Translations under genes and position numbers: made by a program | The notes under the pieces: generated by a model | Told to the model about the DNA's origin: nothing | The model's input: only the letters and a program-made list of their open reading frames with translations | The model's database searches: none | Assembly: GCF_021088345.1 (NCBI RefSeq) | Contig: NZ_CP088156.1 | Location: forward strand, 8,051,001-8,115,000 | DNA: 64,000 bases | Direction of reading: 5' to 3' | Origin: Bradyrhizobium ontarionense | Lineage (GTDB): Bacteria > Pseudomonadota > Alphaproteobacteria > Rhizobiales > Xanthobacteraceae | Shown: piece by piece, positions 743-15,549 of the stretch | Position numbering within the stretch: position 1 is the first letter of the stretch | Layout of the letters: each line of letters opens with the position of its first letter

Positions 743-1405
743 TTATTCGAAGAAGATGAATTCGTGATCGCCGGTGTAGCCCGACCGCTTGAACTCGAAG
801 TCCCATTCCTCGGGCGTGTGGAAGATGCGGCAGGTGAGCTGCCAGTACATCAGGTTCACCTTCTCGCGCTCGTTGCGGTAACCCTCGACGCAGAGGTATT
901 TGGCGCCGCGGCTGACGCGCTCCATCTCGCGGAGCGCCGCATCGAGATCATAGTTGTAGAGGTTGTGCAGCGTGTTGATCGAGATGACGAGATCGAAATG
1001 CTTGTCCGGGTAGGGCAGCTTGGCCGCATTGCCGACCTGGCAGAACGGCTTCACGCTCTCCATCGTGTGCTCCACGCCGTAGGAGGAGACGTCGATGCCG
1101 GCGACCTCGAGATCCGGGATGGCCTCACGGAAATCGTGCAGGATGAAGCCCTTGCCGGAGCCGACGTCGAGCACGCGCATGCCCGGCTTGATGCCGTAGG
1201 CTTCGATCATGGCGTCGGCGACCTTGCGCCAGCGGCCGTCATATTTGTAGCCGCCATAGCCGGTCTCGCGGCTGCCGTCCCAATAGTCGTAGTCGAACTT
1301 GACCGCCATCTCGGCGACGTCGGCCTTGTCGCGCTGGGTGACGCGCGCGAGATAGTCGCGCTTGGTCGATTTGTGGACGAGACTGACGAACTCGCGATAG
1401 GCCAT
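743..1405 (-). CDS. SAM-dependent class I methyltransferase
   Basis: A 220-residue soluble protein with a class I methyltransferase fold. SAM-binding motif I is VLDVGSGKG at about residues 78-86, followed by the acidic end of strand beta-2 (AGIDVS) and a post-II segment with DLVISINTLHNL. It is the last gene of the eleven-gene minus-strand sugar operon, 27 bases after the kinase gene. In that setting it probably O- or C-methylates a sugar or sugar nucleotide, but nothing in the sequence identifies the acceptor. The length is normal for a single-domain methyltransferase and no motif is missing. Family assignment is firm; substrate is unknown. Confidence 0.85.
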   Translation of the reverse strand: MAYREFVSLVHKSTKRDYLARVTQRDKADVAEMAVKFDYDYWDGSRETGYGGYKYDGRWRKVADAMIEAYGIKPGMRVLDVGSGKGFILHDFREAIPDLEVAGIDVSSYGVEHTMESVKPFCQVGNAAKLPYPDKHFDLVISINTLHNLYNYDLDAALREMERVSRGAKYLCVEGYRNEREKVNLMYWQLTCRIFHTPEEWDFEFKRSGYTGDHEFIFFE

Positions 1406-1432
1406 GAAAATCTCCGGGCGTGGGGATGTCGG

Positions 1433-2485
1433 TTAGTCGGATGTGGCGCCGACCAGGCCGAGCTTTGCGTCGGCCTTGGCGAGCTGTTCGGCGCAGCGCT
1501 GCGCCCATGCTCCGGTGTCGGCGAAGGCGCGCCTGGTGGCGCCAAGCGGCAGGAAGTCGTTGAGGATGATGCAGGTCCACTTGATCTGGTAGGCGTCGAG
1601 CAGCAGGTGGCAGCGTGTGACGCTGGCCGCATCGAGCCCGAGTCCCTCCGTCAGCCGCTCGATGAAGTGCTCGTGCATCGCCAGCGGCACCGGCACTTCT
1701 GGCTGGCAGAAGAAGTCCGATACCAGCTTGGCCGGATCGTCGCGGCCGGCATATTCGAAATCGAGGAAAGTGAGCTTGCCGGTCTCGTCGATCAGCGCGT
1801 TGTGGAAGCCAAAGTCGGACGGCGACAGGCAGACCTGATCGCCGGGAATGGCTGCATCCAAGGCAAGACCTTCGGCCGCGGCGCCGCGCAGAATGTCCGC
1901 CTTCACGGCTTCCCAGGCCGGCTGCAGCCGCGCCGCCACCAGCTGGCGTGCCTCGGCCACATGCGGCACCTCGCCATCGAGCGTCGCCAGCCGCGCCACC
2001 CGGCGCTCGACGGTCGCAATGTGCTCGGTGAGCGAGAAGCAGGCCTCCGATCCCGGCGCCAGAGCAGGGCGCGGCGGGGCATTCACAGCGAGCACGAAAT
2101 CAATCGCCGCATCGACATGAACAGGCGCGAGCTCGGTGGCGCCAAGCTTGCGGCCCTGCACGAAGCTGTAGAGCCCGGCCTGCTCGGCGCGATCGCAGGC
2201 GAGCGGCTCGGGCACCACATGGACGCCGCGCGACCAGGCGTGGCTGATGAAGCTCCATTCGGCACCGAGCCGGTCGCGGCTGTCGCGGGCATCGGTGAAG
2301 TAGCGCTTCAGGACCAGCGGGCCGGCCTCGGTGTCCAGACGAAAAACCTGATTGTTGCGGCCGCCCGCCAGCCGGGTCAACGCCTGCGGCGTCGCCTTGC
2401 CGGCCTGCGCGGTGAGGCGCTGCGCCAGCGCCAGCAGGGCGGCATCGGCGTCGGGGCTGGCGTCAGCCGCGGTCACGGACGACAT
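1433..2485 (-). CDS. APH/choline-kinase-fold phosphotransferase
   Basis: A 350-residue protein with an aminoglycoside phosphotransferase-type kinase fold. GGRNNQVF (41-48) forms the nucleotide loop and LVLKRYF carries the ATP-binding Lys60. The catalytic loop reads SPSDFGFHN (221-229), keeping the catalytic Asp224 and Asn229, but the usual HGD histidine is replaced. LDFEYAG carries the metal-binding Asp242. Members of this superfamily phosphorylate small alcohols, amino sugars and sugars; in this operon a sugar or cyclitol kinase is likelier than drug resistance. The start overlaps the end of the upstream HAD gene by 23 bases, suggesting translational coupling. The substrate is not known. Confidence 0.8.
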   Translation of the reverse strand: MSSVTAADASPDADAALLALAQRLTAQAGKATPQALTRLAGGRNNQVFRLDTEAGPLVLKRYFTDARDSRDRLGAEWSFISHAWSRGVHVVPEPLACDRAEQAGLYSFVQGRKLGATELAPVHVDAAIDFVLAVNAPPRPALAPGSEACFSLTEHIATVERRVARLATLDGEVPHVAEARQLVAARLQPAWEAVKADILRGAAAEGLALDAAIPGDQVCLSPSDFGFHNALIDETGKLTFLDFEYAGRDDPAKLVSDFFCQPEVPVPLAMHEHFIERLTEGLGLDAASVTRCHLLLDAYQIKWTCIILNDFLPLGATRRAFADTGAWAQRCAEQLAKADAKLGLVGATSD

Positions 2486-3080
2486 CCGCCGCGATCTCGG
2501 TCCAGGAAGCGCGGCGCTCGTAACCCGTGGCTTTGGTCGCGAACTGGTTCTCGGGGTCGAACAGCACCTTGCGCATCCCTTCCGGAAATCCGGTCATGGC
2601 CAGGATCTCCGGCAGGTCGTCGACGAAGACCTCGCAGGCCAGCGCATGGGCGCGGGCGACCTTGTCGTCCTTGGTCAGTTCGAAGAACACCCGGTCTGGC
2701 GCAATCTGGCCGGGGGCCGCGCCCATCAGGCCGCGGTCCGACAGGAAGCCGCGGGCAGCTGCGTGCATGTCGTGCTTCGGCCCGAGAATGGGATGCTTGG
2801 TCTTATGGCTGACGATGAACAGGTCATGGCCGGCCGCGCGGGCCGCCGCCACGAACGCGGCGAAGCCGGGGTAGGGCGACACCAGGTCCATGCGGGCGCC
2901 ATAGACGTAGCCCTGCAGCTCGGTGAAATCGTCCTTGCGTCCGGAGCCGTTGAGATGGTCGCGGACGCTGTTCTTGTCGCGGCCGAGATCGGCCGGGATC
3001 AGGCCGCGCTCGAGTGCTGCCGCATGAAACACGCCGTCATAGCAGGCGATCGTGTTGTCGAAATCGATCCCGATCCGCAT
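2463..3080 (-). CDS. HAD-superfamily hydrolase (putative sugar phosphatase)
   Basis: A 205-residue HAD-like protein. Motif I is DFDNT at residues 6-10, with Asp6 as nucleophile and Asp8 as acid/base. Motif II is probably the FIVSHKT segment near residue 95, and motif IV the FVDDLPE segment near residue 155. It lacks the DRDG start typical of GmhB, so it is not an obvious GmhB orthologue. In an operon with a heptose-type kinase and nucleotidyltransferase, a role in removing the terminal phosphate of a sugar bisphosphate is plausible. It lies 9 bases after the dehydrogenase gene and overlaps the kinase gene downstream. The function is inferred from context. Confidence 0.75.
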   Translation of the reverse strand: MRIGIDFDNTIACYDGVFHAAALERGLIPADLGRDKNSVRDHLNGSGRKDDFTELQGYVYGARMDLVSPYPGFAAFVAAARAAGHDLFIVSHKTKHPILGPKHDMHAAARGFLSDRGLMGAAPGQIAPDRVFFELTKDDKVARAHALACEVFVDDLPEILAMTGFPEGMRKVLFDPENQFATKATGYERRASWTEIAADVVRDRG

Positions 3081-3089
3081 GGCCTGGAC

Positions 3090-4127
3090 TTAAGCCAGCG
3101 ACATGTCGATCAGCGGACGGCCGACCTTGCCGGCGGCGAGATCCTGCAGCGCCTGATCGGCCTGGGCGAGGCTGTAGGGCTTCGACAGGAGATCCCGCAC
3201 CGGGAAGCGGCCGGAGCTCAGCAGCCGGCCGTAGCGGCCGTAATCGCGATCCGGGACGCTGTCGCCGCCCCAGGTGCCGAGCAGGCTCTTGCCCTGGTTG
3301 AAGACGCCGGGATTCAGCGTGAGCGCCGCGCCATGCTTGGCATTACCGATCACGACGGCGCGGCCGCCCTGCTGGCGCGTGGCATTGATTGCCTGTTCCA
3401 TCACAGCGGGAATGCCGGAGGATTCCACCGCGAGATCAACGCCCTGCGGCACGATCTTCTTGATCTCGGCCAGCACGTCGCCGGATGCATCGATGACATG
3501 GGTCGCGCCATAGAGCTGGGCGAGCGCCCGGCGAGTCGGGTTGGGATCGATGCCGATCACCGGCATGGCGCCGGCCAGGCTTGCTGCCATCAGCGCGTTG
3601 AGGCCGATGCCACCGGTGCCGAACACGGCGACCGCATCGCCCGGCTGCACCTTCAGCACGTTGTAGACCGCGCCCATGCCGGTCGGCGCGGCGCAACCGA
3701 GCAGTACCGCGACGTCCATCGGCAGGTCAGGCGGCAGCAGGGTCAGGCGGTTCTCGCTGACAACCGCATGGCGCTGGAAGGTGGTGACGCCGCCGGCGTT
3801 GACCTTCTTGCCGTCCCAGTCATAGACGGCGCCGCCGGCCTCGATGCCGCTGCCCTTGATCCAGGACAGCACGACCTTGTCGCCGACCTTGACCTTGGTG
3901 ACGGCGTGGCCTGCTTCGATGACCGTGCCGGTGCCTTCATGGCCGAGGCAATGCGGCACCCATTTGTCCTCGCCCTTGTCGCCGCGCCACTCCATCACCT
4001 GGGTGCCGCAGGCGCCGGAATAGGCGATCTCGACCAGCACCTGCCCCGGCTTCAGGGCCGGCGTCTCGATCTCGGCCAGGACGAGCGGCTGGCCGGTCTG
4101 GACCAGGAGGGCAGCTTGGGTCTTCAT
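3090..4127 (-). CDS. Zinc-type medium-chain alcohol dehydrogenase
   Basis: A 345-residue MDR-family dehydrogenase, started at the ATG at 4127, 8 bases after the transketolase stop; a longer reading runs back into that gene. The catalytic-zinc Cys lies in ACGTQVMEW and the zinc His/Glu pair in LGHEGTG. The NAD-binding loop is FGTGGIGLNA. The Cys-rich structural-zinc lobe of classical alcohol dehydrogenases is missing: no cysteines occur between the catalytic domain strands and the Rossmann fold. It presumably oxidises or reduces a sugar hydroxyl or carbonyl in the pathway encoded here. It could equally act on a cyclitol, as many relatives do. The substrate is unknown. Confidence 0.87.
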   Translation of the reverse strand: MKTQAALLVQTGQPLVLAEIETPALKPGQVLVEIAYSGACGTQVMEWRGDKGEDKWVPHCLGHEGTGTVIEAGHAVTKVKVGDKVVLSWIKGSGIEAGGAVYDWDGKKVNAGGVTTFQRHAVVSENRLTLLPPDLPMDVAVLLGCAAPTGMGAVYNVLKVQPGDAVAVFGTGGIGLNALMAASLAGAMPVIGIDPNPTRRALAQLYGATHVIDASGDVLAEIKKIVPQGVDLAVESSGIPAVMEQAINATRQQGGRAVVIGNAKHGAALTLNPGVFNQGKSLLGTWGGDSVPDRDYGRYGRLLSSGRFPVRDLLSKPYSLAQADQALQDLAAGKVGRPLIDMSLA

Positions 4128-4135
4128 GTGATGTC

Positions 4136-5059
4136 TCAGCTCAACACGTGGATGATCTTGTCCGCGATCTGGTGGCCGGTCAGTCCCAGCACCTCGCGGG
4201 CATATTCCTGTTCGCCGGATTTCTTGAAGAAGGCGTCGGGCGTGCCGAAGCGCAGGAACTTCTGGTGCTTCGTCTCGGTATCGGCGAGCCATTCGGAGAC
4301 GGCGGAGCCGAAGCCGCCGATCAGCGAATGCTCCTCGATGGTCGCGACCAGCTTGAAGCGGCTGAAGGCCTGCTTGAGCTTGTCCTCATCCAGCGGCTTC
4401 ACGGTGTGGAAGCTGACGACCTCGGCGGAGATGCCCTTCTCCTTCAACTTGTGCGCGGCTTCAATGACTTCCGGCAGCATGTTGCCGGTCGAGAGCAGGC
4501 AGACGTCGGAGCCTTCCTCGATCGTGATCGCCTTGCCGATCTTGAAATCCGTGATGGGGCCCTTGTGAACGACCGGCTCACCCTTCTTGCCCATGCGGAT
4601 GTAGACCGGACGGTCCTGCTGCATGGCCGCCCGCAACGCGCCGCGCACCTCGAAGGCGTCGCCCGGGCAGATCACGACCATGTTCGGGATCGAGCGCAGG
4701 AACGAGATGTCCTCGCAGGCGTGATGGGTCGGGCCGAGGCCGGAATAGGAAAGACCGGCGCCGACCGCGACGATCGTCACCGGTGCCTCGTGATAGCAGA
4801 CATCGGTGCGGATCTGCTCCAGGCAGCGCGTCGTCACGAACGGCGTGATGGTGTAGGCGACCGGGCGCAGGCCGTTCATGGCCATGCCGGCGGCGACGCC
4901 CATCATGTTGGCTTCGGCGACGCCGCAGTTGAAGAAGCGGCTCGGATGCTTGTCCTTGAACTTGTCGAACAGACGGTTGCCGATGTCGCCCGAGAGCATG
5001 ACGACGCGGCTGTCCTCGTTGCCGAGCTTGGTCAGTTCGTCAGCGAACGCATTTCTCAT
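4136..5059 (-). CDS. Transketolase, C-terminal (pyrimidine-binding) subunit
   Basis: A 307-residue protein covering the pyrimidine-binding and C-terminal domains of transketolase. FFNCGVAEANMMGVAAGMA is the region with the glutamate that activates the thiamine diphosphate ring. Its ATG overlaps the stop of the N-terminal subunit gene by four bases, so the two chains are made together as an alpha2beta2-type split transketolase. Full-length housekeeping transketolase is about 660 residues in one chain, so this is a dedicated split enzyme. In a nucleotide-sugar operon it could make sedoheptulose 7-phosphate or a longer ketose phosphate, or transfer a C2 unit to a keto sugar. Confidence 0.9.
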   Translation of the reverse strand: MRNAFADELTKLGNEDSRVVMLSGDIGNRLFDKFKDKHPSRFFNCGVAEANMMGVAAGMAMNGLRPVAYTITPFVTTRCLEQIRTDVCYHEAPVTIVAVGAGLSYSGLGPTHHACEDISFLRSIPNMVVICPGDAFEVRGALRAAMQQDRPVYIRMGKKGEPVVHKGPITDFKIGKAITIEEGSDVCLLSTGNMLPEVIEAAHKLKEKGISAEVVSFHTVKPLDEDKLKQAFSRFKLVATIEEHSLIGGFGSAVSEWLADTETKHQKFLRFGTPDAFFKKSGEQEYAREVLGLTGHQIADKIIHVLS

Positions 5060-5904
5060 GACAGGCCGAGCTCCTTGAACGACTTGACGACTTCCTCAGC
5101 GGTCGGGGCGCGATAATGCCAGTTGTTGTCGTCCTCCATGAACGACACGCCCTTGCCCTTGACGGTATGGGCGATCAGCGCCACCGGCTTGCCGGAGCCG
5201 TTCGGGATGTTCTGCATGGCTTCCGCCAGCGCGCCGACGTCGTGGCCGTCGATCTCGTGCGCGTCCCAGCCGAAGGCGGCCCATTTGTCGCGCAGCGGCG
5301 CCAGCATCAGGGTCTCGTTGGAGCGCGCGGTCGCCTGCCACTTGTTGTAGTCGACGACGACGCAGACATTCTCGAGCTTCTGGGCGGCGGCGAACATCGC
5401 GGCCTCCCACACCGAGCCCTCGTTGTTCTCGCCGTCCGACAGCAGCGCGAACACGCGGAAGCTCTCGCCCTTGATGCGCCCCGCAAGCGCCATGCCGCAG
5501 CCGAGCGGCAGGCCGTGGCCGAGCGAGCCGGTGGCTGCCTCCACGCCGGGCAGCAGGTTGGCCGGCGGATGCTCGGCGAGCCGGCCGCCGTCCTGGCAAT
5601 AGGTCTCGAGCTCTTCGATCGGGAAATAGCCCTTCATCGCCAGGGTCGCAAACAGCGCCGCGGCGGCATGCCCCTTCGACAGGATGAAGCGATCGCGCAG
5701 CGGATCGGTCGGGTTTGTCGGGTCGATGTTCAGCACGTGCCAATAGGCCGCGGTCATCGCGTCGGCGCAGGACAGCGAGGACGCCAGATGGGCGGCCTGC
5801 GCTTTGTGCGACATCTGGATGATCTTGCCGCGCAACTTCGCCGCCTGCGCCTTCAGGGCGGCGACGTCAGGCTTGGCCGCTGTGCTCCGGACTGCCACGT
5901 TCAT
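5056..5904 (-). CDS. Transketolase, N-terminal (ThDP diphosphate-binding) subunit
   Basis: A 282-residue N-terminal half of transketolase. It has the SKGHAAAALFATLA segment with the conserved histidine, the GSLGHGLPLGCGMAL loop, and the metal/ThDP-binding motif SDGENNEGSVWEA ending in VVVDYNKWQ. The C-terminal half is encoded next, overlapping by four bases. It has no signal peptide and acts in the cytosol. The split arrangement is typical of special-purpose transketolases in secondary metabolism or surface sugar loci rather than the pentose phosphate pathway. The donor and acceptor sugars cannot be read from the sequence. Confidence 0.9.
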   Translation of the reverse strand: MNVAVRSTAAKPDVAALKAQAAKLRGKIIQMSHKAQAAHLASSLSCADAMTAAYWHVLNIDPTNPTDPLRDRFILSKGHAAAALFATLAMKGYFPIEELETYCQDGGRLAEHPPANLLPGVEAATGSLGHGLPLGCGMALAGRIKGESFRVFALLSDGENNEGSVWEAAMFAAAQKLENVCVVVDYNKWQATARSNETLMLAPLRDKWAAFGWDAHEIDGHDVGALAEAMQNIPNGSGKPVALIAHTVKGKGVSFMEDDNNWHYRAPTAEEVVKSFKELGLS

Positions 5905-5949
5905 CGTGCTCTCCAGTCGCGCTTCCCCGGGGAAGCGCAGGGGTCTCGA

Positions 5950-6948
5950 TCAGGGTTTATGGTCGTACTTGGTCGGCAGCTTGGCCATGACATCTTCGAA
6001 GCGTCGCGCCCAGGCGATGACGTCGTCGATGCCCTGTTCCAGCGAGAACGTGTCGCGCCAGCCGAGTTCGGTGCGCAGCTTGAAGCTGTCGAGCGTATAG
6101 GCGGTGTCCTTGCCGGGGCGCTCGGGGCCGATCTCGACGCAGTCCTCGAACGATTTGCCGAGCCGCGCCAGGATCATCTCGACCAGGGTGCGGATCGAGA
6201 CCAGCTCATAGCCCGAGATGTGATAGGTGTCGCCGAGCGTGCCCTTGCGGCCGATCTTCACTGTCGCATCCGACACGTCGGTCATGTGGATGAAGACGCG
6301 GATCGACTTGCCGCCGCCGTCGAGGCGCAATTTCTGCCCGGTCATCGCGGCCACGATGGTGCGCGGCACGATGCGATAGAGCTGCTGGCCGGGGCCGTAG
6401 ACGTTGGCCGCCCGCGTGAACACGACGGGAAACTGGTAGTTGGCGAAATAGGTGCGCAGGCTCATGTCGCCGGCCGCGCGCGACACCGCATAAGGCGTCG
6501 ACGGATTGAACGGCGCATCCTCGCGCACCCAGCCCTCGGTCGAGCCGTAGACCTCCGGCGTGGTAACGTGGACGTAGCGGTCGAGGCCGTCATAGTTGCG
6601 CAGGATGTCGTGCAGCCTGACAGCGGAGACGACGTTGGTCATCATCCAGTGGTCCGGATACAGCCAGCTCTCGCCGACCATGCTCTGCGCCGCGAAATTC
6701 ACCACATGGGTCGGACGCTCGGCCGCAAGCAGCGCCTTCAGCGCATCGAGATCGTGATTGAGATCGACGCGCTTGAAGCGCACGCTGCCGGGACGCTTCT
6801 GCCACTTGTAGGGCAGGAAGGCCTCGTGCGGCTCATCCGACCGACTGGTCGCGATCACGTCGTGACCGGCCGCAGCGAGGAAGTCGACGAAGGTTGCGCC
6901 CGAAAAGGAGTTCGAGCCGAGGATCAGGTACTTTTCGTTCGCAGCCAT
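5950..6948 (-). CDS. Atypical SDR epimerase/4,6-dehydratase-like protein
   Basis: A 332-residue extended short-chain dehydrogenase related to dTDP-glucose and GDP-mannose 4,6-dehydratases. The nucleotide loop reads GSNSFSG, so the middle glycine of GxxGxxG is a serine. The dehydratase-type motif TTPEVYGS takes the place of TDEVYG. The catalytic pair is YAVSR, so the usual YxxxK lysine is an arginine. FTRAANVYGPGQQ follows. In this operon it may dehydrate, oxidise or epimerise an NDP-heptose. It lies 12 bases before the SIS gene start region and 45 bases upstream of the transketolase pair. Fold certain, chemistry uncertain. Confidence 0.82.
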   Translation of the reverse strand: MAANEKYLILGSNSFSGATFVDFLAAAGHDVIATSRSDEPHEAFLPYKWQKRPGSVRFKRVDLNHDLDALKALLAAERPTHVVNFAAQSMVGESWLYPDHWMMTNVVSAVRLHDILRNYDGLDRYVHVTTPEVYGSTEGWVREDAPFNPSTPYAVSRAAGDMSLRTYFANYQFPVVFTRAANVYGPGQQLYRIVPRTIVAAMTGQKLRLDGGGKSIRVFIHMTDVSDATVKIGRKGTLGDTYHISGYELVSIRTLVEMILARLGKSFEDCVEIGPERPGKDTAYTLDSFKLRTELGWRDTFSLEQGIDDVIAWARRFEDVMAKLPTKYDHKP

Positions 6949-6960
6949 CGTCCCTGTCCG

Positions 6961-7569
6961 TCAGACCTCGCGTGTCGTGATGATGTCGCCGCGCTGGGCG
7001 TACAGCCACTGCATGATCATGTGGCCGATCACCATCTGCGCGTCCTCGGCGATCTGCATGTCGTCCACCGCAAAATGGATCGGCACATCGGCCAGCGCCT
7101 TGGACTTGCCGCCGGAAAAACCGAGCACGGCATAGCTGGTCATGCCGATCTTCTTGCCCTCTTCGAGCGCCTTGACGATGTTCGGCGAGTTGCCGGAGCC
7201 GGAGAACGCGATCAGCACGTCGCCCTTGCGCGCGAGCACCGCGAGCTGCAGCGAGAACACCTGGTCGTAGCCTTCGTCGTTGGCGAGGCAGGTGATCACG
7301 GACGGGTTCGACGACAGCGAATGCACCCGCAGGCCGGAGCCGGGCGTCTTCGAGAGCGCGTAAAGGAAATCGTTGGCGAGATGGTTGGCGTTGCCACCGC
7401 TGCCGCCATTGCCGCAGAAGAACACTTGGCGGCCGGTCTGCCAGCAATCGCGCAGCTCGTAGGCGAGCTTCTCGACCGGGCTCCAGTCGAAATCCTTCAG
7501 CACGGTGCTGAAGCGGCTGGTGTAGTCGGCGAACAGGCTGCCGGGGGTCTTGAAGGCCAAGACGTTCAT
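6961..7569 (-). CDS. SIS-domain sugar-phosphate isomerase, GmhA-like
   Basis: A 202-residue single-SIS protein, started at the ATG at 7569 because this overlaps the upstream stop as ATGA. The phosphosugar loops are GNGGSGGNA (53-61) and FSGSGNSPN (122-130), as in phosphoheptose isomerase GmhA, which converts sedoheptulose 7-phosphate to D-glycero-D-manno-heptose 7-phosphate. Its length matches GmhA (about 190-200). With the adjacent split transketolase and HldE-like fusion this supports a heptose-type pathway. Alternatives are DiaA-like or other SIS proteins, but the context favours an isomerase. Confidence 0.87.
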   Translation of the reverse strand: MNVLAFKTPGSLFADYTSRFSTVLKDFDWSPVEKLAYELRDCWQTGRQVFFCGNGGSGGNANHLANDFLYALSKTPGSGLRVHSLSSNPSVITCLANDEGYDQVFSLQLAVLARKGDVLIAFSGSGNSPNIVKALEEGKKIGMTSYAVLGFSGGKSKALADVPIHFAVDDMQIAEDAQMVIGHMIMQWLYAQRGDIITTREV

Positions 7570-8504
7570 TTCACGACCTCCTTCTCCATCCATTTCAGAT
7601 TGTACCAGCGGTCCTCGTTCTTGAGCTGGCCTTGCGAGTACATGCCGATGATTTCCTTGATCGCGTCCTCCACCGTCTTCTTCGGGCGGAAGCCGGTCGC
7701 GAGCAGGCGATCGGAATTGACGCGATAGCTGCGCGGATCGTTCGAGGGCGTCACGATGACCTCGGCCGGCACGTGCTTGGTGACGAGGTTGGCGATGTCG
7801 AGGATCGAGATGTTCTCGAAGCCGGCATTGTAGACGCCGGTGTGCTCAGGATGATCGAGCAGGAACAGATAGAGGTCGGTGATGTCATCGATGTGAATGT
7901 TCGGGCGCGTCTGGTCGCCGCCGAACACGGTGATGCGGCCGTTCGTCAGAGCCTGCATCGTCAGCATGTTGACGGAGACGTCGAGTCGCTGCCTCGGAGA
8001 ATAGCCGCACACCGTGGCCGGGCGCACGATCTGCACCACCATGTCGTCCTTGTAGGACAGCACGATGCGCTCGCCGCACATCTTGGTCTTGTTGTACTCG
8101 GAGATCGGCAGCAGCTCGAGGTCCTCGGTGACCTGCTCCTCTTCCTTGACGCCGTAGACGCTGCCGGAGGAGGCGTAGATGAAGCGCTTGATGCCGTGGC
8201 GGTAGGCGCGATCGGCGAGCTGCATCGTGGCGAGGCAGGAGATCTCCCAGGTCAGCTTGGGGTCGAGATCGCCGCAGGGATCGTTGGCAACGCTGGAGAG
8301 ATGGATGATGGCGTCGACGCCGGTCAGGTCGATGGCGTCGGGATTGCGGACGTCGCCCTGGACGACCGTGAGATCCGGATGCGGCTCGAGGAAGTTGCCG
8401 AACCACATGATGTCGAACGCGACGACCTTGTGGCCGGCCTTCAGGAGCTTCGGCACGAGCACGCTGCCCTTGTAGCCGCACGCTCCGGTCACGAATACTT
8501 TCAT
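7566..8504 (-). CDS. NAD-dependent epimerase/dehydratase (SDR)
   Basis: A 312-residue extended SDR. The NAD-binding loop is TGACGYKGS at the N terminus, the catalytic Ser lies in YASSGSVYG, and the Tyr/Lys pair is in YNKTK, all intact. It resembles UDP-glucose 4-epimerase-type enzymes and GDP-heptose or NDP-sugar epimerases found in LPS and capsule loci. It follows a 108-base gap after the nucleotidyltransferase gene, the largest gap in the operon, which could hold an internal promoter. Its likely job is epimerisation or reduction of the activated sugar. It contrasts with the second SDR of the operon, which has non-canonical residues. Confidence 0.88.
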   Translation of the reverse strand: MKVFVTGACGYKGSVLVPKLLKAGHKVVAFDIMWFGNFLEPHPDLTVVQGDVRNPDAIDLTGVDAIIHLSSVANDPCGDLDPKLTWEISCLATMQLADRAYRHGIKRFIYASSGSVYGVKEEEQVTEDLELLPISEYNKTKMCGERIVLSYKDDMVVQIVRPATVCGYSPRQRLDVSVNMLTMQALTNGRITVFGGDQTRPNIHIDDITDLYLFLLDHPEHTGVYNAGFENISILDIANLVTKHVPAEVIVTPSNDPRSYRVNSDRLLATGFRPKKTVEDAIKEIIGMYSQGQLKNEDRWYNLKWMEKEVVK

Positions 8505-8612
8505 CTGAGCAATCCCCGTGGCTCGCCTGTCGTTCCGCTCGCTCTCGCGTCGAGCGCACCTTTATACAAATTGGCAGCAAAAGGCGACCAGCCCAGCGAC
8601 GAAAGCCGCCCG

Positions 8613-9335
8613 TCAAACGCCCCCGCCATGGCGTGGTTTGTGCTTAAACTCCAAATGCGCCCGGCGCAAGCTTTCCGGGTTGCCGATGTCCCGGTGATAA
8701 CCACTGGTTTCCACGCACAAAATTCGTCCCAGATAGTTCGGGATGATTTCGGTGGAAAGGTCGACGACGGGTTTTCCGAGCGCCGCAATGTCCTCGATCA
8801 CCTCTGGATCGAACACATAGACCGCACCATTGGCGAGGTTCCCGGGCGGATTTTCGACCTTCTCGTGAAACGCGACCACCCTGTTCTCGCGGTCGAGCTC
8901 GAGGATTCCGCAGGAACTCGGATCGTCGGTCCGGAACGCCAGCATGGTCATGATGCAGCCGGAGGGCCGGTTGGCATGAGCGGCGATCAGGCCTTCGACA
9001 TCGAGGTCGGTCAGATTGTCGGCGTGTGCGACGAGAAACGGCTGGTCGCCGAACCATTCGCGGTTGGCAAGCACCGTGCCGCCGGTTCCGAGCAGTTCAT
9101 CTTCGTGAACGAGGTCGATGCGGTCGCGCCACCGCGATTGCGCCACATGGGCCCGGACCTGTTCGGCCAGCCAGTGGGTGTTGAGCAGCGCCCGCTCGAC
9201 GCCGCCCTCGAAAACGAGGTCGAGCCAGTAGTCCAGCAGTGGACGATCATGCACACGGACCAGGCATTTCGGCGTCGTGTCGGTGAGCGGGCGCAGCCGG
9301 CTTCCGATTCCCGCCGCGAGCAGAAGGGCACGCAT
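8613..9335 (-). CDS. Sugar-1-phosphate nucleotidyltransferase, HddC/RmlA-like
   Basis: A 240-residue nucleotidyltransferase with the N-terminal signature LLLAAGIGSRLRPLTD (residues 4-19). The sugar-binding DELLGTGGT segment lies near residue 79, and HADNLTD supplies the metal-binding Asp. The length fits the short HddC-type enzymes that make GDP-D-glycero-D-manno-heptose, rather than the longer ManC type found elsewhere in this window. It lies 9 bases after the HldE-like gene. Because that neighbour also has a cytidylyltransferase domain, the operon holds two potential activating enzymes, which suggests two sugars or two steps. Nucleotide and sugar specificity are not decided. Confidence 0.88.
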   Translation of the reverse strand: MRALLLAAGIGSRLRPLTDTTPKCLVRVHDRPLLDYWLDLVFEGGVERALLNTHWLAEQVRAHVAQSRWRDRIDLVHEDELLGTGGTVLANREWFGDQPFLVAHADNLTDLDVEGLIAAHANRPSGCIMTMLAFRTDDPSSCGILELDRENRVVAFHEKVENPPGNLANGAVYVFDPEVIEDIAALGKPVVDLSTEIIPNYLGRILCVETSGYHRDIGNPESLRRAHLEFKHKPRHGGGV

Positions 9336-9344
9336 GACGACATC

Positions 9345-10850
9345 CTACTCGTGGCTGAAGCCGGCTTCGTCGATTTCCCGCACCAGTTCCGCGGAGGTCA
9401 GCGGCAGATTGCCGACGCGGGAGACCTGCAGGGCCGCAGCCAGCGAGCCGAGATAGGACGCCTGCCAGATGTCTGCGCCTGCGCGCAGGGCCATCGACGA
9501 CGCCATGAACAAGCTGTCGCCCGCGCCCGAGACGTCCTTTGGAGACGGATTGAAGGCGGGCAGGCGGTCGGAGGTAAACGTGCCGTCGGCCAGCGTGTTG
9601 ATCAGCGCCCCTTCCGCGCCGAGCGTGATCACCAGGTTCTTGGTCCGCGCCCGCTCCACCAGCCGCTCGCTGATGACGGCAAGGCCCGAGATGAAGTCGT
9701 TCAGCGCGACGCGGGCCTCGCGCTCGGTCGGCGTCAACAGCGTCATGCCCCTGAAACGCGAGACATCGCCGGTCTGCGAGGACACTTGGCTGTCGGCTGC
9801 CATCATCACGCCCTTGGACCGGGCGAGATCGGCGATCGCGTCCACCAGGTCCTGCGGCAGGCAGCCATAGTTGAAGCAGGAGAACAGCAGAAGATCGCTG
9901 GTCTTCAATGCGCGCTCGACCGCCGCCAGCATCTGCCGCTGCAATTCGGCATCGGAGGCGTGCTGGCGCAGATGATTGACCCGCAACAGCGTCTTGTTGA
10001 GGGCGCGGAAACGCTGCTTGCGCGTGGTCGGCCTGGTCTGGTCGGTGAACGCATTGAAATTGACGCCGTGCTGCTCGAGCGTGTTGCGGGCAAAGCGCGC
10101 CGCCTCGTCATCGCCGACCAGCGTGAAGAATTTCACGTCGGCGCCCAGTCCATGCGCATGCGCCGCGACTGCGCCGGCGCCGCCGACGAAGGTGCGCGTC
10201 ATCAGCGGGGTGACGACGATGGTCGGATCTTCCTGCGACATGCCGACGGCATCGCAGGTGACATATTCGTCGACGATCAGGTCGCCAATGACCGCCACCC
10301 GCATGCCGGTCAGCTTTCCGAGGAGACCCTTCAGGTTCGAGATATCGAAGCCGTGACGCTTGGGGAACTCGAGCGGTTTACGGACCGTCGACATGTCAAC
10401 GTTCGCGTCGCGTTCCAACAGCGACAGCGAGGCAAATCGCAGTTCGCCGGACGAGAAGATCAGGCGTCCGCCATAGCTGTCGACGGCATCCTGCTCAGGG
10501 TTGGCGCGGTCTTCGAACTCCTTGCCTTTGACGACCACCGTCGGTTTCAGGCGTGCAATGAAGTCGGAAGCATTTGTTCCCAAACGCACGACATGGTGCA
10601 CAAAAGAGATCGAGCGCACGTTCTCGAAGCGCATGTCCTGCGCCAGGGTCACGCCGGGAGTCGAATCCGGGTTGACGCCGACGACGAGCACCTCGGCCTG
10701 CTCGGCAGCGAATTTCAGAAGCCGCAAATGTCCGGGGTGCACGACGTTGAAATTGCCGGACACGAACGCAATGGTTTGCCCGGATTCGCATGACGCACGA
10801 ATCGTCTCACAGGCCAGATCCATGCGGGCGGTATCGATCATCTGGTCCAA
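9345..10850 (-). CDS. Reverse-order HldE-like fusion: cytidylyltransferase then PfkB kinase
   Basis: A 501-residue fusion. Residues about 27-150 are a cytidylyltransferase domain with GNFNVVHPGH (32-41, HxGH active site). Residues about 183-495 are a PfkB sugar kinase starting VAVIGDLIVDEYV and ending with the DVSGAGD signature (439-445, catalytic Asp445). HldE of LPS heptose synthesis has the same two domains in the opposite order (kinase first). The start is a TTG at 10850 with GGAGG 8 bases upstream; an ATG three codons later is an alternative. First gene of the operon. It probably phosphorylates a heptose-type sugar at C1 and transfers a nucleotide to it. Confidence 0.88.
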   Translation of the reverse strand: MDQMIDTARMDLACETIRASCESGQTIAFVSGNFNVVHPGHLRLLKFAAEQAEVLVVGVNPDSTPGVTLAQDMRFENVRSISFVHHVVRLGTNASDFIARLKPTVVVKGKEFEDRANPEQDAVDSYGGRLIFSSGELRFASLSLLERDANVDMSTVRKPLEFPKRHGFDISNLKGLLGKLTGMRVAVIGDLIVDEYVTCDAVGMSQEDPTIVVTPLMTRTFVGGAGAVAAHAHGLGADVKFFTLVGDDEAARFARNTLEQHGVNFNAFTDQTRPTTRKQRFRALNKTLLRVNHLRQHASDAELQRQMLAAVERALKTSDLLLFSCFNYGCLPQDLVDAIADLARSKGVMMAADSQVSSQTGDVSRFRGMTLLTPTEREARVALNDFISGLAVISERLVERARTKNLVITLGAEGALINTLADGTFTSDRLPAFNPSPKDVSGAGDSLFMASSMALRAGADIWQASYLGSLAAALQVSRVGNLPLTSAELVREIDEAGFSHE

Positions 10851-11572: not shown

Positions 11573-12739
11573 TCAGTGATAGAGGTCGAACTGTTCGTCT
11601 TTTCGCCGATCGAGGTCGGCCGCCAGGGCGTCCCGGTCGATCAGCGGGAACAGCTTGCTGAATTCGGGTCGGGTCAGCAGGGCGAGGTAGGTCTTGAGCA
11701 TGCCCCGCTCGGACGGATGCGCTGGATCGAAGAAGTTGCCGGAATCCTGCGATATCTCGGTGCGACTCATGTCGAAGAACGGGATGCCGAGCCGTGCAAA
11801 TCTCTCGACGGTCTGCGGGCTCTTGAGTTCGCGCCAGAGGCCTGAATAGGGCCAGTAGGTTTCGTCGGTATCGAGGAAGGCTGCCGCGCTCTCCAGCAAT
11901 GGATACTGGATCGCAACCACCGAGAAGCCACGTTCGCGAGACAGTCGGGACAAGCGCTCGACCTCGCGAATTTGCCCTTCGCTCAGATGGGGGGCTCCCG
12001 GAAACGAGGATGTAACGTATTGAGCGCCTCGGGACAACGTCTCTGCCGATGTGCTTCGATAGGGTGGGGCGACGATGACAGAACCGTCCTTGCGGAATCC
12101 GAACTTTCCGCGAATCGCCTCCGGACCAATCAGTATGTTGTTATCCACGGGCTCGACTTGCGGAGTGAGTAGCGTGGACCGAATGGTATCGACATTTCCG
12201 CCGGTCCGGATCACGAAGTCCGTCACGTCGTGCAACTTCCGCCGGTGCGAATCGATGCCCTGGGTGAAGTCCATCGTGCGTTCCTTCCGCCAGGCCTCGG
12301 CGAGGAAATCGCCGAACAGGAAGTAATCCAGCGCCACGATGACGACCCGCGGCTTCGCAGCCGTGGTCGCGCGATCTATGAAATCCACGACGTGTGTGAG
12401 AGGCCAAGCCGTCAGGCAGGCGTTGTAGGCCACATAGGGGCGAAACATCTGCTCGCGGGCTTGGCCGCAGCGTGAGCTTCCCACCAGCAAGACCTCAGGG
12501 CGGATCTGCCTGATTCGCTCGAGCTTGTAGGGCGCATAGTCCTTGAATGTGCCGAGCCAGACGAGTCGATCGCTACGCGACTGCTCCACCGCAATCACCG
12601 ACAGTGGAACCGTCGCGCCCAATCGCCACCCGGCCCATTCCAAAACCGCCAGCAGCGGCACGAAAACGGCAGCAAATAGCGCCACGACTATCGCGAGATA
12701 CCGAGTCACCGGTTCGTACCCACTTTGATGGTATTGCAT
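11573..12739 (-). CDS. SGNH/AlgJ-like polysaccharide acetylation protein
   Basis: A protein of about 388 residues with one N-terminal membrane segment (starting around YLAIVVALFAAVFVPLL) and a periplasmic SGNH-hydrolase-like domain. The presumed nucleophile is in VGSSRCGQ and the Asp/His pair in DPAHPSERG near the C terminus, as in AlgJ/AlgX/DltD-type proteins that pass acetyl groups to polysaccharides. The ATG at 12739 is chosen; a TTG at 12769 with AGGAT upstream would add ten residues. It is the third gene of a minus-strand set led by the MBOAT gene. The role in O-acetylation is inferred from motifs and neighbours. Confidence 0.72.
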   Translation of the reverse strand: MQYHQSGYEPVTRYLAIVVALFAAVFVPLLAVLEWAGWRLGATVPLSVIAVEQSRSDRLVWLGTFKDYAPYKLERIRQIRPEVLLVGSSRCGQAREQMFRPYVAYNACLTAWPLTHVVDFIDRATTAAKPRVVIVALDYFLFGDFLAEAWRKERTMDFTQGIDSHRRKLHDVTDFVIRTGGNVDTIRSTLLTPQVEPVDNNILIGPEAIRGKFGFRKDGSVIVAPPYRSTSAETLSRGAQYVTSSFPGAPHLSEGQIREVERLSRLSRERGFSVVAIQYPLLESAAAFLDTDETYWPYSGLWRELKSPQTVERFARLGIPFFDMSRTEISQDSGNFFDPAHPSERGMLKTYLALLTRPEFSKLFPLIDRDALAADLDRRKDEQFDLYH

Positions 12740-12847
12740 ACTGCCAAGTTCGACGATTTTGGCTCGCAATCGGCATCATCCTGAAGTCGATTGCGCGCAT
12801 TCAGGCTAGTGGCTAAGAGGGGCGGCTGCAAGAACGTCGTCTCGCGC

Positions 12848-14014
12848 TCAGCTTTTCGGAAGAGCCGCGAGAGAGTGCTGGATCTCAGCGGCATCGATCC
12901 TCGGAAACTCTGCTCGAAAATCCGGATCGTTCAGCAAATGCAGCATCACTCTGGCGGCGCCGGATTCGGCGAGGTGGTATGCGTCCACGAAACTCGCTGT
13001 CTCATCTTCCATCGGCAGACGCGCCAGATCAAAGAAAGGGATTCCTATCTCCCGCAACCAGTTCCTGGTCTCCTTGGCTGCGAACTCGCGCCAGGCGCCG
13101 AATCCGAGGGGACCGGCCTGCTCGCGATCCAATAGATCGACGCCGGCGCGAATGAATGGCAACTGGATGCCCAACAGCTTCACGCCGCGTGCCTCTGCGA
13201 TCTCGGCAAGACGCATGATCGGTTGCTTCAGCCACGATGAAAGGCCCGATGCGCGAGGCAGGGTCTCAGCGAGCGTTTCTGCGTTCATGTAACGTGAGCG
13301 CGCGTCGGCAACGTGGCCCGGTGAATAGAGGTACGACCCGTCGTCGCGGAAGCCCTCCTCATGAAAGATGGATTGAGTGCCGATGAAGGCTGTCGGCGCG
13401 TTCAGGTAGTTCCGAAAAGGGGCAGGGTGGCGCGTTGCCGTCCGGGCAAAATCCAGCAGGCTCGATCTCACATAGGAGAGAGCGCGATCATGATACATCT
13501 TTCGTGGAAGCGCGAACCATTCTTCCCATCGTTCCGCGAACAGGAAATGATCCAGCGACAGGATCGCGATCCTGGGGGGCGCCTGCCGCGTGGCGCGCTC
13601 GAACAGATCGGCCATCTGGCCGGTGGTCCAGGCCGTGAACGAGAGATTGTAGAACCGGTAGGGAGCAAAAAGAGCAGCCCGAAACGTGCCTGCGCGCGAT
13701 GTGCTGATCCAGATGATTTCGGGGTGCTCCTGCTCGACCCTCGCCAGCTTGAACGCCGCGTTGTAGCGCAGATCGAACGGAAGCACGATCTGCTCCGGGT
13801 GGTCCCGTTGCGATTGCGCAAGGTCCTTCAGGGTCGCGGAAGCGCCGAATGGGCGGGCGGCGTGAAACAGGCCGATCGGAGGAAGGTAGCCTGCAACGGC
13901 AGCGGCTGCCAGAACGCCCATGCAATAGCGCCGCGTGAGATCCCTTGGCGGCAGTTCCGCGCGAGGCTGCGGCTGGTCGTTCATGCGCCGGTCGTTTGAG
14001 CCGTGATCCGTCAC
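12848..14014 (-). CDS. SGNH/AlgX-like protein, second paralogue
   Basis: A 388-residue protein with an N-terminal signal anchor (around YCMGVLAAAAVAGYLPPIG) and a predicted extracytoplasmic SGNH-like fold. The first block reads STSRAGTFR and the Asp/His block DAYHLAESGA. The layout parallels the 11573-12739 protein: the TS/SSRxG block, a central LDxFLF segment (LDHFLF versus LDYFLF), and IPFFDxxR before the catalytic His. The start is a GTG at 14014 with GGAGCG upstream; an ATG at 13984 is possible. It lies between the MBOAT gene and the first paralogue, so the two probably work with the same MBOAT donor protein. Confidence 0.72.
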   Translation of the reverse strand: MTDHGSNDRRMNDQPQPRAELPPRDLTRRYCMGVLAAAAVAGYLPPIGLFHAARPFGASATLKDLAQSQRDHPEQIVLPFDLRYNAAFKLARVEQEHPEIIWISTSRAGTFRAALFAPYRFYNLSFTAWTTGQMADLFERATRQAPPRIAILSLDHFLFAERWEEWFALPRKMYHDRALSYVRSSLLDFARTATRHPAPFRNYLNAPTAFIGTQSIFHEEGFRDDGSYLYSPGHVADARSRYMNAETLAETLPRASGLSSWLKQPIMRLAEIAEARGVKLLGIQLPFIRAGVDLLDREQAGPLGFGAWREFAAKETRNWLREIGIPFFDLARLPMEDETASFVDAYHLAESGAARVMLHLLNDPDFRAEFPRIDAAEIQHSLAALPKS

Positions 14015-14046
14015 GATGAGCCCACGCTCCGGGTGCGCCTACGTGC

Positions 14047-15549
14047 TCAGAACTGGAAATAGAGGAACTGCGAGGTGTCGCCGGCAATGATGTTCATGAG
14101 CACCGCTGCAACCAGCGCGACGGACGTCCCGATTGCCCAGGCCAGGGACGGTCGCCACTTGAGGTTGAGGATGCTCCAGGGCCGCGGATTGTGATAGGTT
14201 TCCAGGCCGACCTTCCAGCTTTCGAACATCGCGTTGACGTTGGGGAGCGCAAGACAGGCGGCGTAGCCCAGCAGGATTGCGATCATCAGGCGCGGGTCCA
14301 CGAGGTTCGTCATCGTGATCCGCTCTGGATTGGACAGCCCGATCATCCCCTTGATGAGCCTGACGGCAGCGTTCGGATTGTCGGCGCGGAAGAAGACCCA
14401 GGCCAGAACCACGACGAATTGCGTCAACAGAAGTGCCGCCACGGCGTACCAGACGGAACCCGACAGGCGGGCGAGCGTCGGCCGCGCCTGGACGAATTTG
14501 CTCCAGCGATGATTGACGATCAGAAACAGCCCGTGCAGGGCGCCCCAGATCACGAACGTGAAGCCTGCTCCGTGCCAGAGGCCGCCGAGCAGCATGGTGG
14601 CGAAAAGGTTCGCATTCCGACGATGCTCGCCATAGCGGTTGCCGCCCAGGGGAATGTAGAGATAGTCGCGCAGGAATCGCGACAGGGAGATATGCCATCG
14701 ACGCCAGAATTCGATGATGCTCTGGGACTTATAGGGGGCGTCGAAATTGAAGGGCAGCTTGATCCCGAACATGATCGAAATGCCGATCGCCATGTCCGAA
14801 TATCCGGAAAAGTCGAAATAGATCTGCAGCGAGTAGGCGAGCGCGCCGCCCCAGGCATCCATCAGATGGAGATGGCTCGAATTGGCTGCCTGGAATACAG
14901 GATTGGCGACCAGGCCAAAGCCGTCGGCGATGAACGACTTCTTGAACAGGCCAATCGTCAGGATCGTGAGGCCGACCGCGACCTTCTCGATGGAAATCCT
15001 TCGGCTGTCCTCCGCGCCGAATTGCGGAATCATCTCGCGATGATGCAGGATCGGCCCCGCGACCAGATGCGGGAAATACGTGACGAACAGCCCATATTTG
15101 ACGAAGCTGCGCTCATCGGCGTAGCCGCCATAGACGTCGGCCAGATAGGCGATCTGGGTGAAGGTGAAGAACGAAATACCCAGTGGAAGAACGATGGCGA
15201 GCGATGGGTACTTCGATGCGGAGAGCGCATTGAATATCTGAATGCCGAAGTTGGTATATTTGTAGAACGCGAGCGCTCCGAGATTGAGCGTGACGGCGGT
15301 CGCAAGGAGGCCGCTGCGAAGCTTTCCGCTCTGTCCTGCGATGAGCAGGCCCATCGTGTAATTGAAGACGATGGAGACCAGGATGATCGGGACGAAATGA
15401 ATGTCCCAATAGCTGTAGAAGGCCAGCGACGCGGCGGCGAGCCAGCTCAAGCGCGCGAAAGGTGCCACGAAAAAGCGGGCCAACAGGAAATATCCGGCGA
15501 ACGTCACCGGCAGGAACAGGAACAGAAACTCAAATTGCGTGAAGAGCAT
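14047..15549 (-). CDS. MBOAT-family O-acyltransferase, AlgI/DltB-like
   Basis: A 500-residue integral membrane protein with about a dozen hydrophobic segments. The MBOAT core includes PYKSQSIIEFWRRWHISLSR and the segment LLGGLWHGAGFTFVIWGALHG with the invariant catalytic histidine. It resembles AlgI, which moves acetyl groups across the inner membrane for alginate O-acetylation. It leads the set MBOAT, SGNH, SGNH on the minus strand. A third SGNH gene diverges from it across a 600-base spacer. The likely role is acetylation of the exopolysaccharide or O-antigen made by this region. Confidence 0.93.
   Translation of the reverse strand: MLFTQFEFLFLFLPVTFAGYFLLARFFVAPFARLSWLAAASLAFYSYWDIHFVPIILVSIVFNYTMGLLIAGQSGKLRSGLLATAVTLNLGALAFYKYTNFGIQIFNALSASKYPSLAIVLPLGISFFTFTQIAYLADVYGGYADERSFVKYGLFVTYFPHLVAGPILHHREMIPQFGAEDSRRISIEKVAVGLTILTIGLFKKSFIADGFGLVANPVFQAANSSHLHLMDAWGGALAYSLQIYFDFSGYSDMAIGISIMFGIKLPFNFDAPYKSQSIIEFWRRWHISLSRFLRDYLYIPLGGNRYGEHRRNANLFATMLLGGLWHGAGFTFVIWGALHGLFLIVNHRWSKFVQARPTLARLSGSVWYAVAALLLTQFVVVLAWVFFRADNPNAAVRLIKGMIGLSNPERITMTNLVDPRLMIAILLGYAACLALPNVNAMFESWKVGLETYHNPRPWSILNLKWRPSLAWAIGTSVALVAAVLMNIIAGDTSQFLYFQF

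Follow-up and report, generated by a model that had tools for sequence, protein, structure and literature searches.

The Bradyrhizobium ontarionense counterpart of the published gdh cluster: a probable bradyrhizose operon and a putative route joining heptose-type activation to thiamine diphosphate-dependent branching

Bradyrhizose is a bicyclic ten-carbon sugar whose O-antigen reportedly does not elicit innate immunity in plants, and a transposon screen of strain ORS285 linked two genes to it, mutants in either gdh or rfaL being devoid of the bradyrhizose O-antigen (Busset et al., 2016, PMC4743980; here and below as far as the accessible text of that paper goes). According to the same source, gdh belongs to an eleven-gene cluster, mostly of sugar-modification genes, located ~44 kb from rfaL; the synteny of this cluster is kept in six photosynthetic strains, and the authors proposed bradyrhizose synthesis as its function (PMC4743980). 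In this study, we analyzed an operon of eleven open reading frames (ORFs; g1 to g11 in the order of transcription) on the minus strand of a 64,000-nucleotide stretch of the Bradyrhizobium ontarionense genome (NZ_CP088156.1, positions 8,051,001–8,115,000; this whole stretch is referred to as the window), where it extends from position 10850 to 743. We infer that this operon joins a heptose-type activation of the sugar to branching by a thiamine diphosphate (ThDP)-dependent enzyme.

Among the described ThDP enzymes, split transketolases of the predicted keto-sugar kind are named in the accessible part of a 2025 review (PMC12247030) only for miharamycin, amipurimycin and 13 streptomycete sequences: hydroxyacetyl transfer to keto sugars is proposed for the first two, with function still pending, and none of the 13 further candidates, all from streptomycetes, is characterized in vitro. 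The E1-type enzymes of known sugar clusters add a two-carbon (C2) acetyl branch (PMC12247030). A biosynthetic route to bradyrhizose, or a role of a transketolase in it, was not found in the openly licensed literature searched, where absence is weak evidence; searches of openly licensed papers for branched sugars made with a transketolase and for related structures gave nothing useful. The 2016 paper named the cluster but outlines no route in its accessible text (PMC4743980), and the comparison presented here adds a concrete, testable route and questions the gdh label.

Identity with the published cluster, and distribution

The gene-specific parts of both ORS285 gdh primers have one site each in the window (vs. 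none in 100 shuffles), and both sites fall in g5 (Table 1). The same two primers match exactly in genome G246 (locus L069 and its shorter copy L005), which carries all eleven genes in the order of the window; the forward primer is also exact in L098. Both rfaL primers are exact in L186, on the same G246 contig, 45.1–45.9 kb from the gdh sites, and the B. ontarionense stretch that aligns to the G246 rfaL region lies ~39 kb from g5 (a distance read off the alignment). Because the gdh and rfaL primers are exact there, G246 is ORS285 or a strain alike at these primer sites. Judging from these matches, we are nearly certain that the operon is the cluster of Busset et al. (2016) in another strain, and bradyrhizose is very probably its product. 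The original prediction, made from the sequence, had offered bradyrhizose as a candidate product of the operon, which the gdh and rfaL primer matches and the gene content of the published cluster now support; its description of the product as undescribed falls, the cluster having been published in 2016 together with the proposal that it makes bradyrhizose.

A close relative of the operon's SIS gene, g4 (E <= 4.8e-99), was found in 16 of the 265 genomes of the genus, including the genome of the window. In 14 of the 15 others, all eleven genes are present in the same order and on the same strand, the fifteenth locus ending at a contig edge, a conservation that speaks against a chance arrangement. 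Beyond the genus, all eleven genes are found in G306 (another genus of the same family), and ten in the fetched stretch of G297, with an MBOAT gene and two genes of no known family between g4 and g5. A scan of a genome collection with the g1 alignment gave at least 594 pattern matches; the best 80 of 159 confirmed relatives were used (rows duplicated between sets being L096 = L073, L097 = L078 and L161 = L090). Among these best 80, matches to all eleven genes occur in a gammaproteobacterial metagenome-assembled genome (MAG; L111), a Rhodospirillaceae MAG (L144) and Herbaspirillum sp. Sphag64 (L146, with g1-g2 on the opposite strand from the remaining genes), and matches to ten genes, g8 being absent, in an uncultured alphaproteobacterium (L147). 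Partial sets are seen in an Acidobacteria MAG (L118) and two Chlorobium (L125, L127), L118 and L127 being cut at the locus edge.

Photosynthetic reaction-centre genes are present in 27 of the 265 genus genomes vs. 16 with the operon marker (the close SIS gene): 10 genomes have both, 6 the operon only and 17 the reaction centre only, an enrichment with Fisher p ~1e-7 (the genomes are not independent). The idea that the operon simply reflects a photosynthetic lifestyle was rejected, given the 6 and 17 genomes in which one occurs without the other; neither needs the other.

Two side observations concern g1 relatives. A more distant group with 29–34% identity (L090-L095, L148-L175), including a Thermoplasmata MAG, has no g2 at 90 bits and is often accompanied by g3-, g11- and transketolase- or E1-like genes. 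In L044/L085 (G426) and L047 (G437) the g1 homologue match contains one TGA in each genome, which may be just the gene end.

The transketolase and its replacement in sister operons

Pfam confirms the split transketolase of the original prediction (Transketolase_N on one gene, Transketolase pyr/C on the next). In the alignment of g7 with E. coli TktA, Glu411 and His473 are kept, and three other active-site positions are changed (Gly for His461, Leu for Asp469, Lys for Arg520). Gly461, Leu469, Lys520 and Glu411 are kept in all 25 rows, representing 23 distinct records, that reach 54% identity or more; of the 22 rows at greater distance, His461 occurs in none, Gly461 in 18 and Leu469 in 19, and one locus (L102), with Asp469 and Arg520 present, may encode another ThDP enzyme. 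Two other transketolases of this genome keep His461, Asp469 and Arg520, and the nearest solved relative of g7, a Carboxydothermus split transketolase, has His, Glu and Asp in this loop. In TktA, His461 is associated with the phosphate of natural substrates, and changes of Asp469 alter the activity with propionaldehyde (accessible part of PMC3657141).

The neighborhoods of related g1 genes provide the second line of evidence. Five Rhodopseudomonas-type loci (L084-L086, L110, L114) contain g1, g2, g3, g5, g8 and g11 at 43–76% identity together with a more distant SIS gene (34–35%), and g6, g9 and g10 have no match in their fetched stretches. In the place of the transketolase, L084 carries two subunits, an alpha of the E1_dh family and a beta in which Transket_pyr and Transketolase_C domains are present; Pfam was run on L084, and the other four loci match its E1 pair at 85–92%. 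We scored 91 related g1 loci (one known duplicate, L090/L161), 56 of which have g2 at 90 bits or more. These 56 comprise 11 with transketolase, HAD and APH, 3 with transketolase alone, 13 with E1 alone, 5 with both ThDP types, 1 with APH alone and 23 with none. Thus, HAD and APH accompany 11 of the 14 transketolase-only loci vs. 0 of 18 E1 loci (Fisher p ~3e-6, the loci not being independent) and are absent from the five loci with both enzymes; in the 35 loci without g2, a transketolase is found in 12 and HAD or APH in 0. In a quick tree built from 49 selected g1 rows, the E1 label (14 rows, L131 being counted although it is under the thresholds of the 91-locus scoring) needs 9 changes, at least 5 of them forced by well-supported branches.

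The active-site changes, and the E1 pair that replaces the transketolase in sister operons, point instead to a branching enzyme, and we lean, if slightly, toward a C4 branching by the transketolase. The role given to it in the original prediction, supply of sedoheptulose phosphate, was rejected as its sole role in view of the active-site changes and the other transketolases of the genome. More tentatively, and at less than even confidence, the operon could be a member of a multi-phylum family of higher-sugar operons, in which a chassis resembling that for nucleoside diphosphate (NDP)-heptose (g1-g5, g8, g11) would be combined with swappable ThDP enzymes grafting a C4 branch (hydroxyacetyl by a new transketolase subfamily, acetyl by E1), later closed into a carbocyclic ring; the transketolase version would yield bradyrhizose, and Rhodopseudomonas, Herbaspirillum, Chlorobium and other groups would make new bicyclic sugars resembling it.

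Further ThDP genes were seen at some loci. In L084, an enzyme with TPP_enzyme N/M/C domains lies downstream of g2 and has relatives in L085, L086, L110 and L114. The loci with a transketolase and E1 together beside g1-g2 are L109, L132, L135, L136 and L141, four of them from one close Alteromonas-like group.

Activation genes, proposed route and rival explanations

The original prediction had read the operon as a full heptose-type activation pathway. Parts of it do resemble one, but the heptose models stay below their cut-offs, residues of the isomerase are changed and the HAD protein, judged by its best fold matches, is not of the GmhB type. Among the matches listed for g1-g10, the only NCBIfam model over its cut-off is TIGR00125, a generic cytidylyltransferase-type domain, in g1 (39 vs. 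27.7 bits). The GmhA model TIGR00441 gives 110.5 bits with g4 (cut-off 209.45, which is strict in this genus, being reached by 0 of the 130 genomes, out of 265, that have a match); g1 scores 192.5 bits with the HldE kinase model (cut-off 345) and 152.8 bits with a second HldE model (cut-off 521), and the HddC model gives 60.8 bits (cut-off 300). Both domains of the predicted kinase/cytidylyltransferase fusion are present in g1, in the opposite order, with the cytidylyltransferase (30–119) ahead of the kinase (185–480). The HldE NCBIfam model has its kinase at 8–314 of 475, and E. coli HldE likewise has the kinase first and the nucleotidyltransferase second. The HxGH and GAGD motifs are present in g1, which is 31–91% identical to the 11 homologues aligned. 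Of the catalytic residues of E. coli GmhA, His61 and His180 are kept in g4, and Glu65 and Gln172 are changed (E65D, Q172E). Roles of Glu65 and Gln173 are given for the M. tuberculosis enzyme (accessible part of PMC7705670), their equivalence to the E. coli positions being our own. No GmhB is named among the 50 fold matches listed for g9.

A separate HldE scoring over the cut-off is encoded elsewhere in this genome, in which g4 is the sole SIS_2 match. The possibility that the operon SIS protein replaces a lost GmhA was considered and rejected, because many genomes of the genus have HldE but no GmhA (253 of 265 contain an HldE match at 1e-80, and 130 of 265 any GmhA-model match at 1e-15). As a side observation, G246 has a second gmhA-like gene near hldE/rfaL, in a stretch of ~690 bases (L186, 10154–10846); between the same flanks (aligning at 87–89%), the genome of the window has ~120 bases only, without such a gene (near 8013520; L087, 14519–14638).

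The gdh label of g5 was examined against dehydratases of the RmlB type, which have a Thr-Asp-Glu (TDE) motif and the Lys of YxxxK. RmlB is the best-scoring NCBIfam model for g5 (196.3 bits, below the cut-off of 365.1), and among solved structures the best relatives of g5 bear the name dTDP-glucose 4,6-dehydratase. In all 34 rows of at least 235 bits TPE replaces TDE, and YxxxK is replaced by YxxxR in 32 and YxxxH in 2; 14 lower-scoring rows are other short-chain dehydrogenases/reductases (SDRs) that have Lys, and 3 of these also carry TDE, as does E. coli RmlB. The loss of Asp alone would not exclude dehydration, since TSE is found in some related dehydratases. Because of TPE for TDE and YxxxR for YxxxK, the label "dTDP-glucose 4,6-dehydratase" is doubtful, and g5 is probably not an ordinary 4,6-dehydratase.

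Whether the published bradyrhizose cluster makes this ten-carbon sugar in activated form by the route outlined in this paragraph, every reaction of which is inferred, appears to us evenly balanced. The C1 aldehyde of bradyrhizose closes on the C4 hydroxyl to give a furanose, or on the C5 or C9 hydroxyl to give pyranoses (accessible part of PMC9912281). Since both the C5 and the C9 closures give pyranoses, C4 would lie between C5 and C9, branched and with its own hydroxyl, which is the product expected from an attack of a ThDP enzyme on a 4-keto sugar. In the route, g4, g1, a phosphatase and g2 would convert a ketose phosphate (in all likelihood sedoheptulose 7-phosphate) to an NDP-heptose, whose C4 would be oxidized to a ketone by g3 and/or g5 with retention of the C6 hydroxyl. 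The g6/g7 transketolase would then add a hydroxyacetyl (C2) unit to this ketone, yielding a tertiary alcohol and a new C9-C8 branch; g8 would oxidize C7 to an aldehyde, and its aldol attack by C8 would close the six-membered ring C4-C5-C6-C7-C8-C9. A hydroxyl of the added two-carbon unit may be phosphorylated by g10 and later freed by g9, as is suggested by the finding of g9 and g10 only with the transketolase, an acetyl branch having no such extra hydroxyl. Finally, g11 would supply the tenth carbon by methylation adjacent to the C9 ketone, which would be reduced by an SDR. The carbon count would be satisfied (heptose 7 + hydroxyacetyl 2 + S-adenosylmethionine (SAM) methyl 1 = 10), with bradyrhizose taken by us to bear a methyl group, at the position assumed here. 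Which step follows which, which enzyme closes the ring and what g9 and g10 do is conjecture, and we consider the ring closure and the g9/g10 roles as drawn rather doubtful.

Several observations weigh against this interpretation. There is no obvious aldol cyclase among the operon genes; the chain length of seven leans on weak similarity to GmhA and HldE; and of the two nucleotidyltransferase domains in the operon, one may be idle. In a wider alignment, the loop of the window transketolase is gapped, so that the 461-469 pairing rests on a narrower alignment, the equal loop length and the GPTH anchor, and the TPE signature holds only in near relatives of g5. As for the sister loci, five of the 56 with g2 carry the transketolase and E1 together, three transketolase loci lack HAD and APH (L098, where the contig is cut, L120 and L137), and, the loci being related to one another, the cases behind the HAD/APH association are not independent. 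On the g1 tree, where long branches meet, the transketolase label needs 11 changes, a number as low in 62 of 500 shuffles. Because 24 of the 56 loci have neither ThDP type in the fetched stretch at the thresholds used (one with APH at the edge), the g1-g2 pair is not tied to branching. The gdh mutation of ORS285 was possibly polar, as noted by its authors (PMC4743980).

The possible polarity also bears on a rival explanation, in which the operon makes another sugar, of the core or a side group, bradyrhizose is made elsewhere, and the O-antigen loss in the gdh mutant stems from a missing primer or from polarity. This would agree with the absence of a methylated monosaccharide from the lipopolysaccharide core of both the gdh and rfaL mutants (PMC4743980), but is quite unlikely in view of the conserved order of the eleven genes in 14 of the 15 genus relatives fetched (the fifteenth being cut) and of an enzyme set that fits a C4-branched carbocyclic sugar. 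A hexose route, in which an NDP-4-keto-hexose would receive two C2 units by two actions of the transketolase with no heptose involved, also gives the right count (6 + 2 + 2 = 10) and would make sense of the likeness of g5 to RmlB; nevertheless, it would assign no function to the GmhA-like isomerase, the HldE-like kinase or the methyltransferase, and g5 lacks the RmlB Asp and Lys, so that we judge this route very unlikely.

A further alternative, which we consider unlikely, is linear elongation. Here, the transketolase would lengthen an aldose phosphate (e.g., heptose 7-phosphate to a nonulose phosphate), the SIS protein, kinase, phosphatase and nucleotidyltransferase would activate the C9 chain, an aldol reaction of C9 with a C4 ketone would close the ring and the methyltransferase would add C10. 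The carbon count is the same (9 + 1), the isomerase, kinase, phosphatase and nucleotidyltransferase are the natural set for an elongated ketose phosphate, and HAD and APH go with the transketolase; however, this transketolase lacks the phosphate-binding His and the acceptor-side Asp, and sister operons with the same g1-g3 and g5 use an E1 pair, from which elongation of aldose phosphates would not be expected.

Operon layout, neighboring genes and comparison with known systems

The eleven-gene, one-strand operon is real, and its ORFs, gaps and three overlaps come close to the figures of the original prediction. With the g8 start taken, by our choice, as the later ATG at 4127 instead of 4292, the intergenic gaps are 9, 108, 12, 45, 8, 9 and 27 bases, and the overlapping genes share 28, 4 and 23 bases; a g4 start at 7569 instead of 7593 would cut the 28-base overlap to 4. 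A terminator scan behind g11 gave nothing informative. The predicted folds are borne out by Pfam for the PfkB kinase and cytidylyltransferase, NTP_transferase, two epimerase-type SDRs, SIS_2, zinc alcohol dehydrogenase, APH and methyltransferase. For the predicted HAD phosphatase, g9, neither Pfam nor NCBIfam gives a match at E 0.001, and the best E in a PDB profile search is only 0.062; its HAD fold is backed by the fold matches of a confident AlphaFold model (mean pLDDT 95.2), the best of which are HAD-fold 5'(3')-deoxyribonucleotidases. For g10, SPSDFGFHN is invariant across 11 rows, the fold matches are choline-kinase and APH folds, and the PDB profile search gave one partial match only. 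Relatives of g3 with 72–82% identity occur in several loci outside the family, e.g., L098, L105, L106, L111, L144 and L146.

Table 1. Operon genes, gdh primer sites and a neighboring gene trio in the window, with roles as predicted from sequence
Feature	Position	Strand	Description	Predicted role
g1	9345..10850	-	cytidylyltransferase-like domain in front of PfkB kinase; TTG start as listed	predicted anomeric kinase of heptose-type sugar phosphate
g2	8613..9335	-	NTP_transferase, MurU/HddC/GMP-type nucleotidyltransferase	would make NDP-sugar
g3	7566..8504	-	SDR with YxxxK (SEYNKTK)	predicted 4-oxidase, epimerase or ketoreductase
g4	6961..7593 (start may be 7569)	-	GmhA-like SIS ketose/aldose isomerase	
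g5	5950..6948	-	RmlB-like SDR; corresponds to gdh in Busset et al. (2016, PMC4743980)	
g6	5056..5904	-	N-terminal half of split transketolase, ThDP-binding	
g7	4136..5059	-	C-terminal half of split transketolase	
g8	3090..4127	-	zinc-type medium-chain alcohol dehydrogenase, 345 residues from later ATG	would oxidize a sugar alcohol group
g9	2463..3080	-	HAD-fold phosphatase; no family match in Pfam or NCBIfam	
g10	1433..2485	-	APH/choline-kinase-fold small-molecule kinase	
g11	743..1405	-	SAM-dependent methyltransferase	would add tenth carbon
ORS285 gdh forward primer site (PMC4743980)	6803..6825	-	3 mismatches in 23, in g5	
ORS285 gdh reverse primer site (PMC4743980)	6445..6468	+	1 mismatch in 24, in g5	
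Possible accessory trio	11573..15549	-	upstream of operon; MBOAT acyltransferase (14047-15549) and two proteins of no known family (12848-14014, 11573-12769)	may perhaps O-acetylate the sugar

In the fetched stretches, an MBOAT gene lies beside the operon in 8 of the 14 complete genus loci, and all three trio genes in 5 of the 14; in L083, an MBOAT gene and two no-family genes are inside the operon, and one of the two resembles the trio proteins of the window at 36–37%. Farther away, positions 19646–40532 of the window (plus strand) encode an asparagine synthase, UDP-glucose dehydrogenase, epimerase, ManC-type enzyme, two TPR/GT41 proteins, a DegT aminotransferase and a MurJ-type flippase; this looks like another glycan locus, part of which may act with the operon.

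An anticipated consequence of this analysis is the occurrence of related sugars well outside the Aeschynomene symbionts. If the transketolase indeed transfers hydroxyacetyl to a ketone, O-antigen clusters of Gram-negative bacteria would offer a route to tertiary alcohols.

Compared with described systems, the operon agrees best with the ORS285 gdh cluster, with which it shares the number of genes, the gdh gene and a like distance to rfaL (~44 kb in the paper, ~45 kb in G246). With the ADP/GDP-heptose pathway (GmhA, HldE or HddA, GmhB, HddC), it shares the logic of an isomerase, a kinase/nucleotidyltransferase fusion, a phosphatase and a nucleotidyltransferase, but differs in scores below the NCBIfam cut-offs, the reversed fusion, the other HAD type and the E65D/Q172E changes. 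The split transketolases of miharamycin and amipurimycin are, like g6/g7, split ThDP transketolases, with a keto-sugar acceptor proposed there, a likeness by description; unlike g6/g7, they are named for antibiotics, with candidates from streptomycetes. A C4 branch made by a ThDP enzyme, as proposed here for bradyrhizose, is also found in O-antigen and glycolipid sugars of the YerE, ErwE and caryophyllose type, although YerE is a ThDP enzyme of the decarboxylase class, unlike a transketolase (accessible part of PMC12247030). The E1-type (alpha-keto acid dehydrogenase 2) branching enzymes of aldgamycin, kibdelomycin and avilamycin differ from the window transketolase in having an acetyl instead of a hydroxyacetyl donor, and none is encoded in the window; they are of the same class as the pairs that stand in the place of the transketolase in L084-L086, L105 and L106, a likeness to these sister pairs by class alone.

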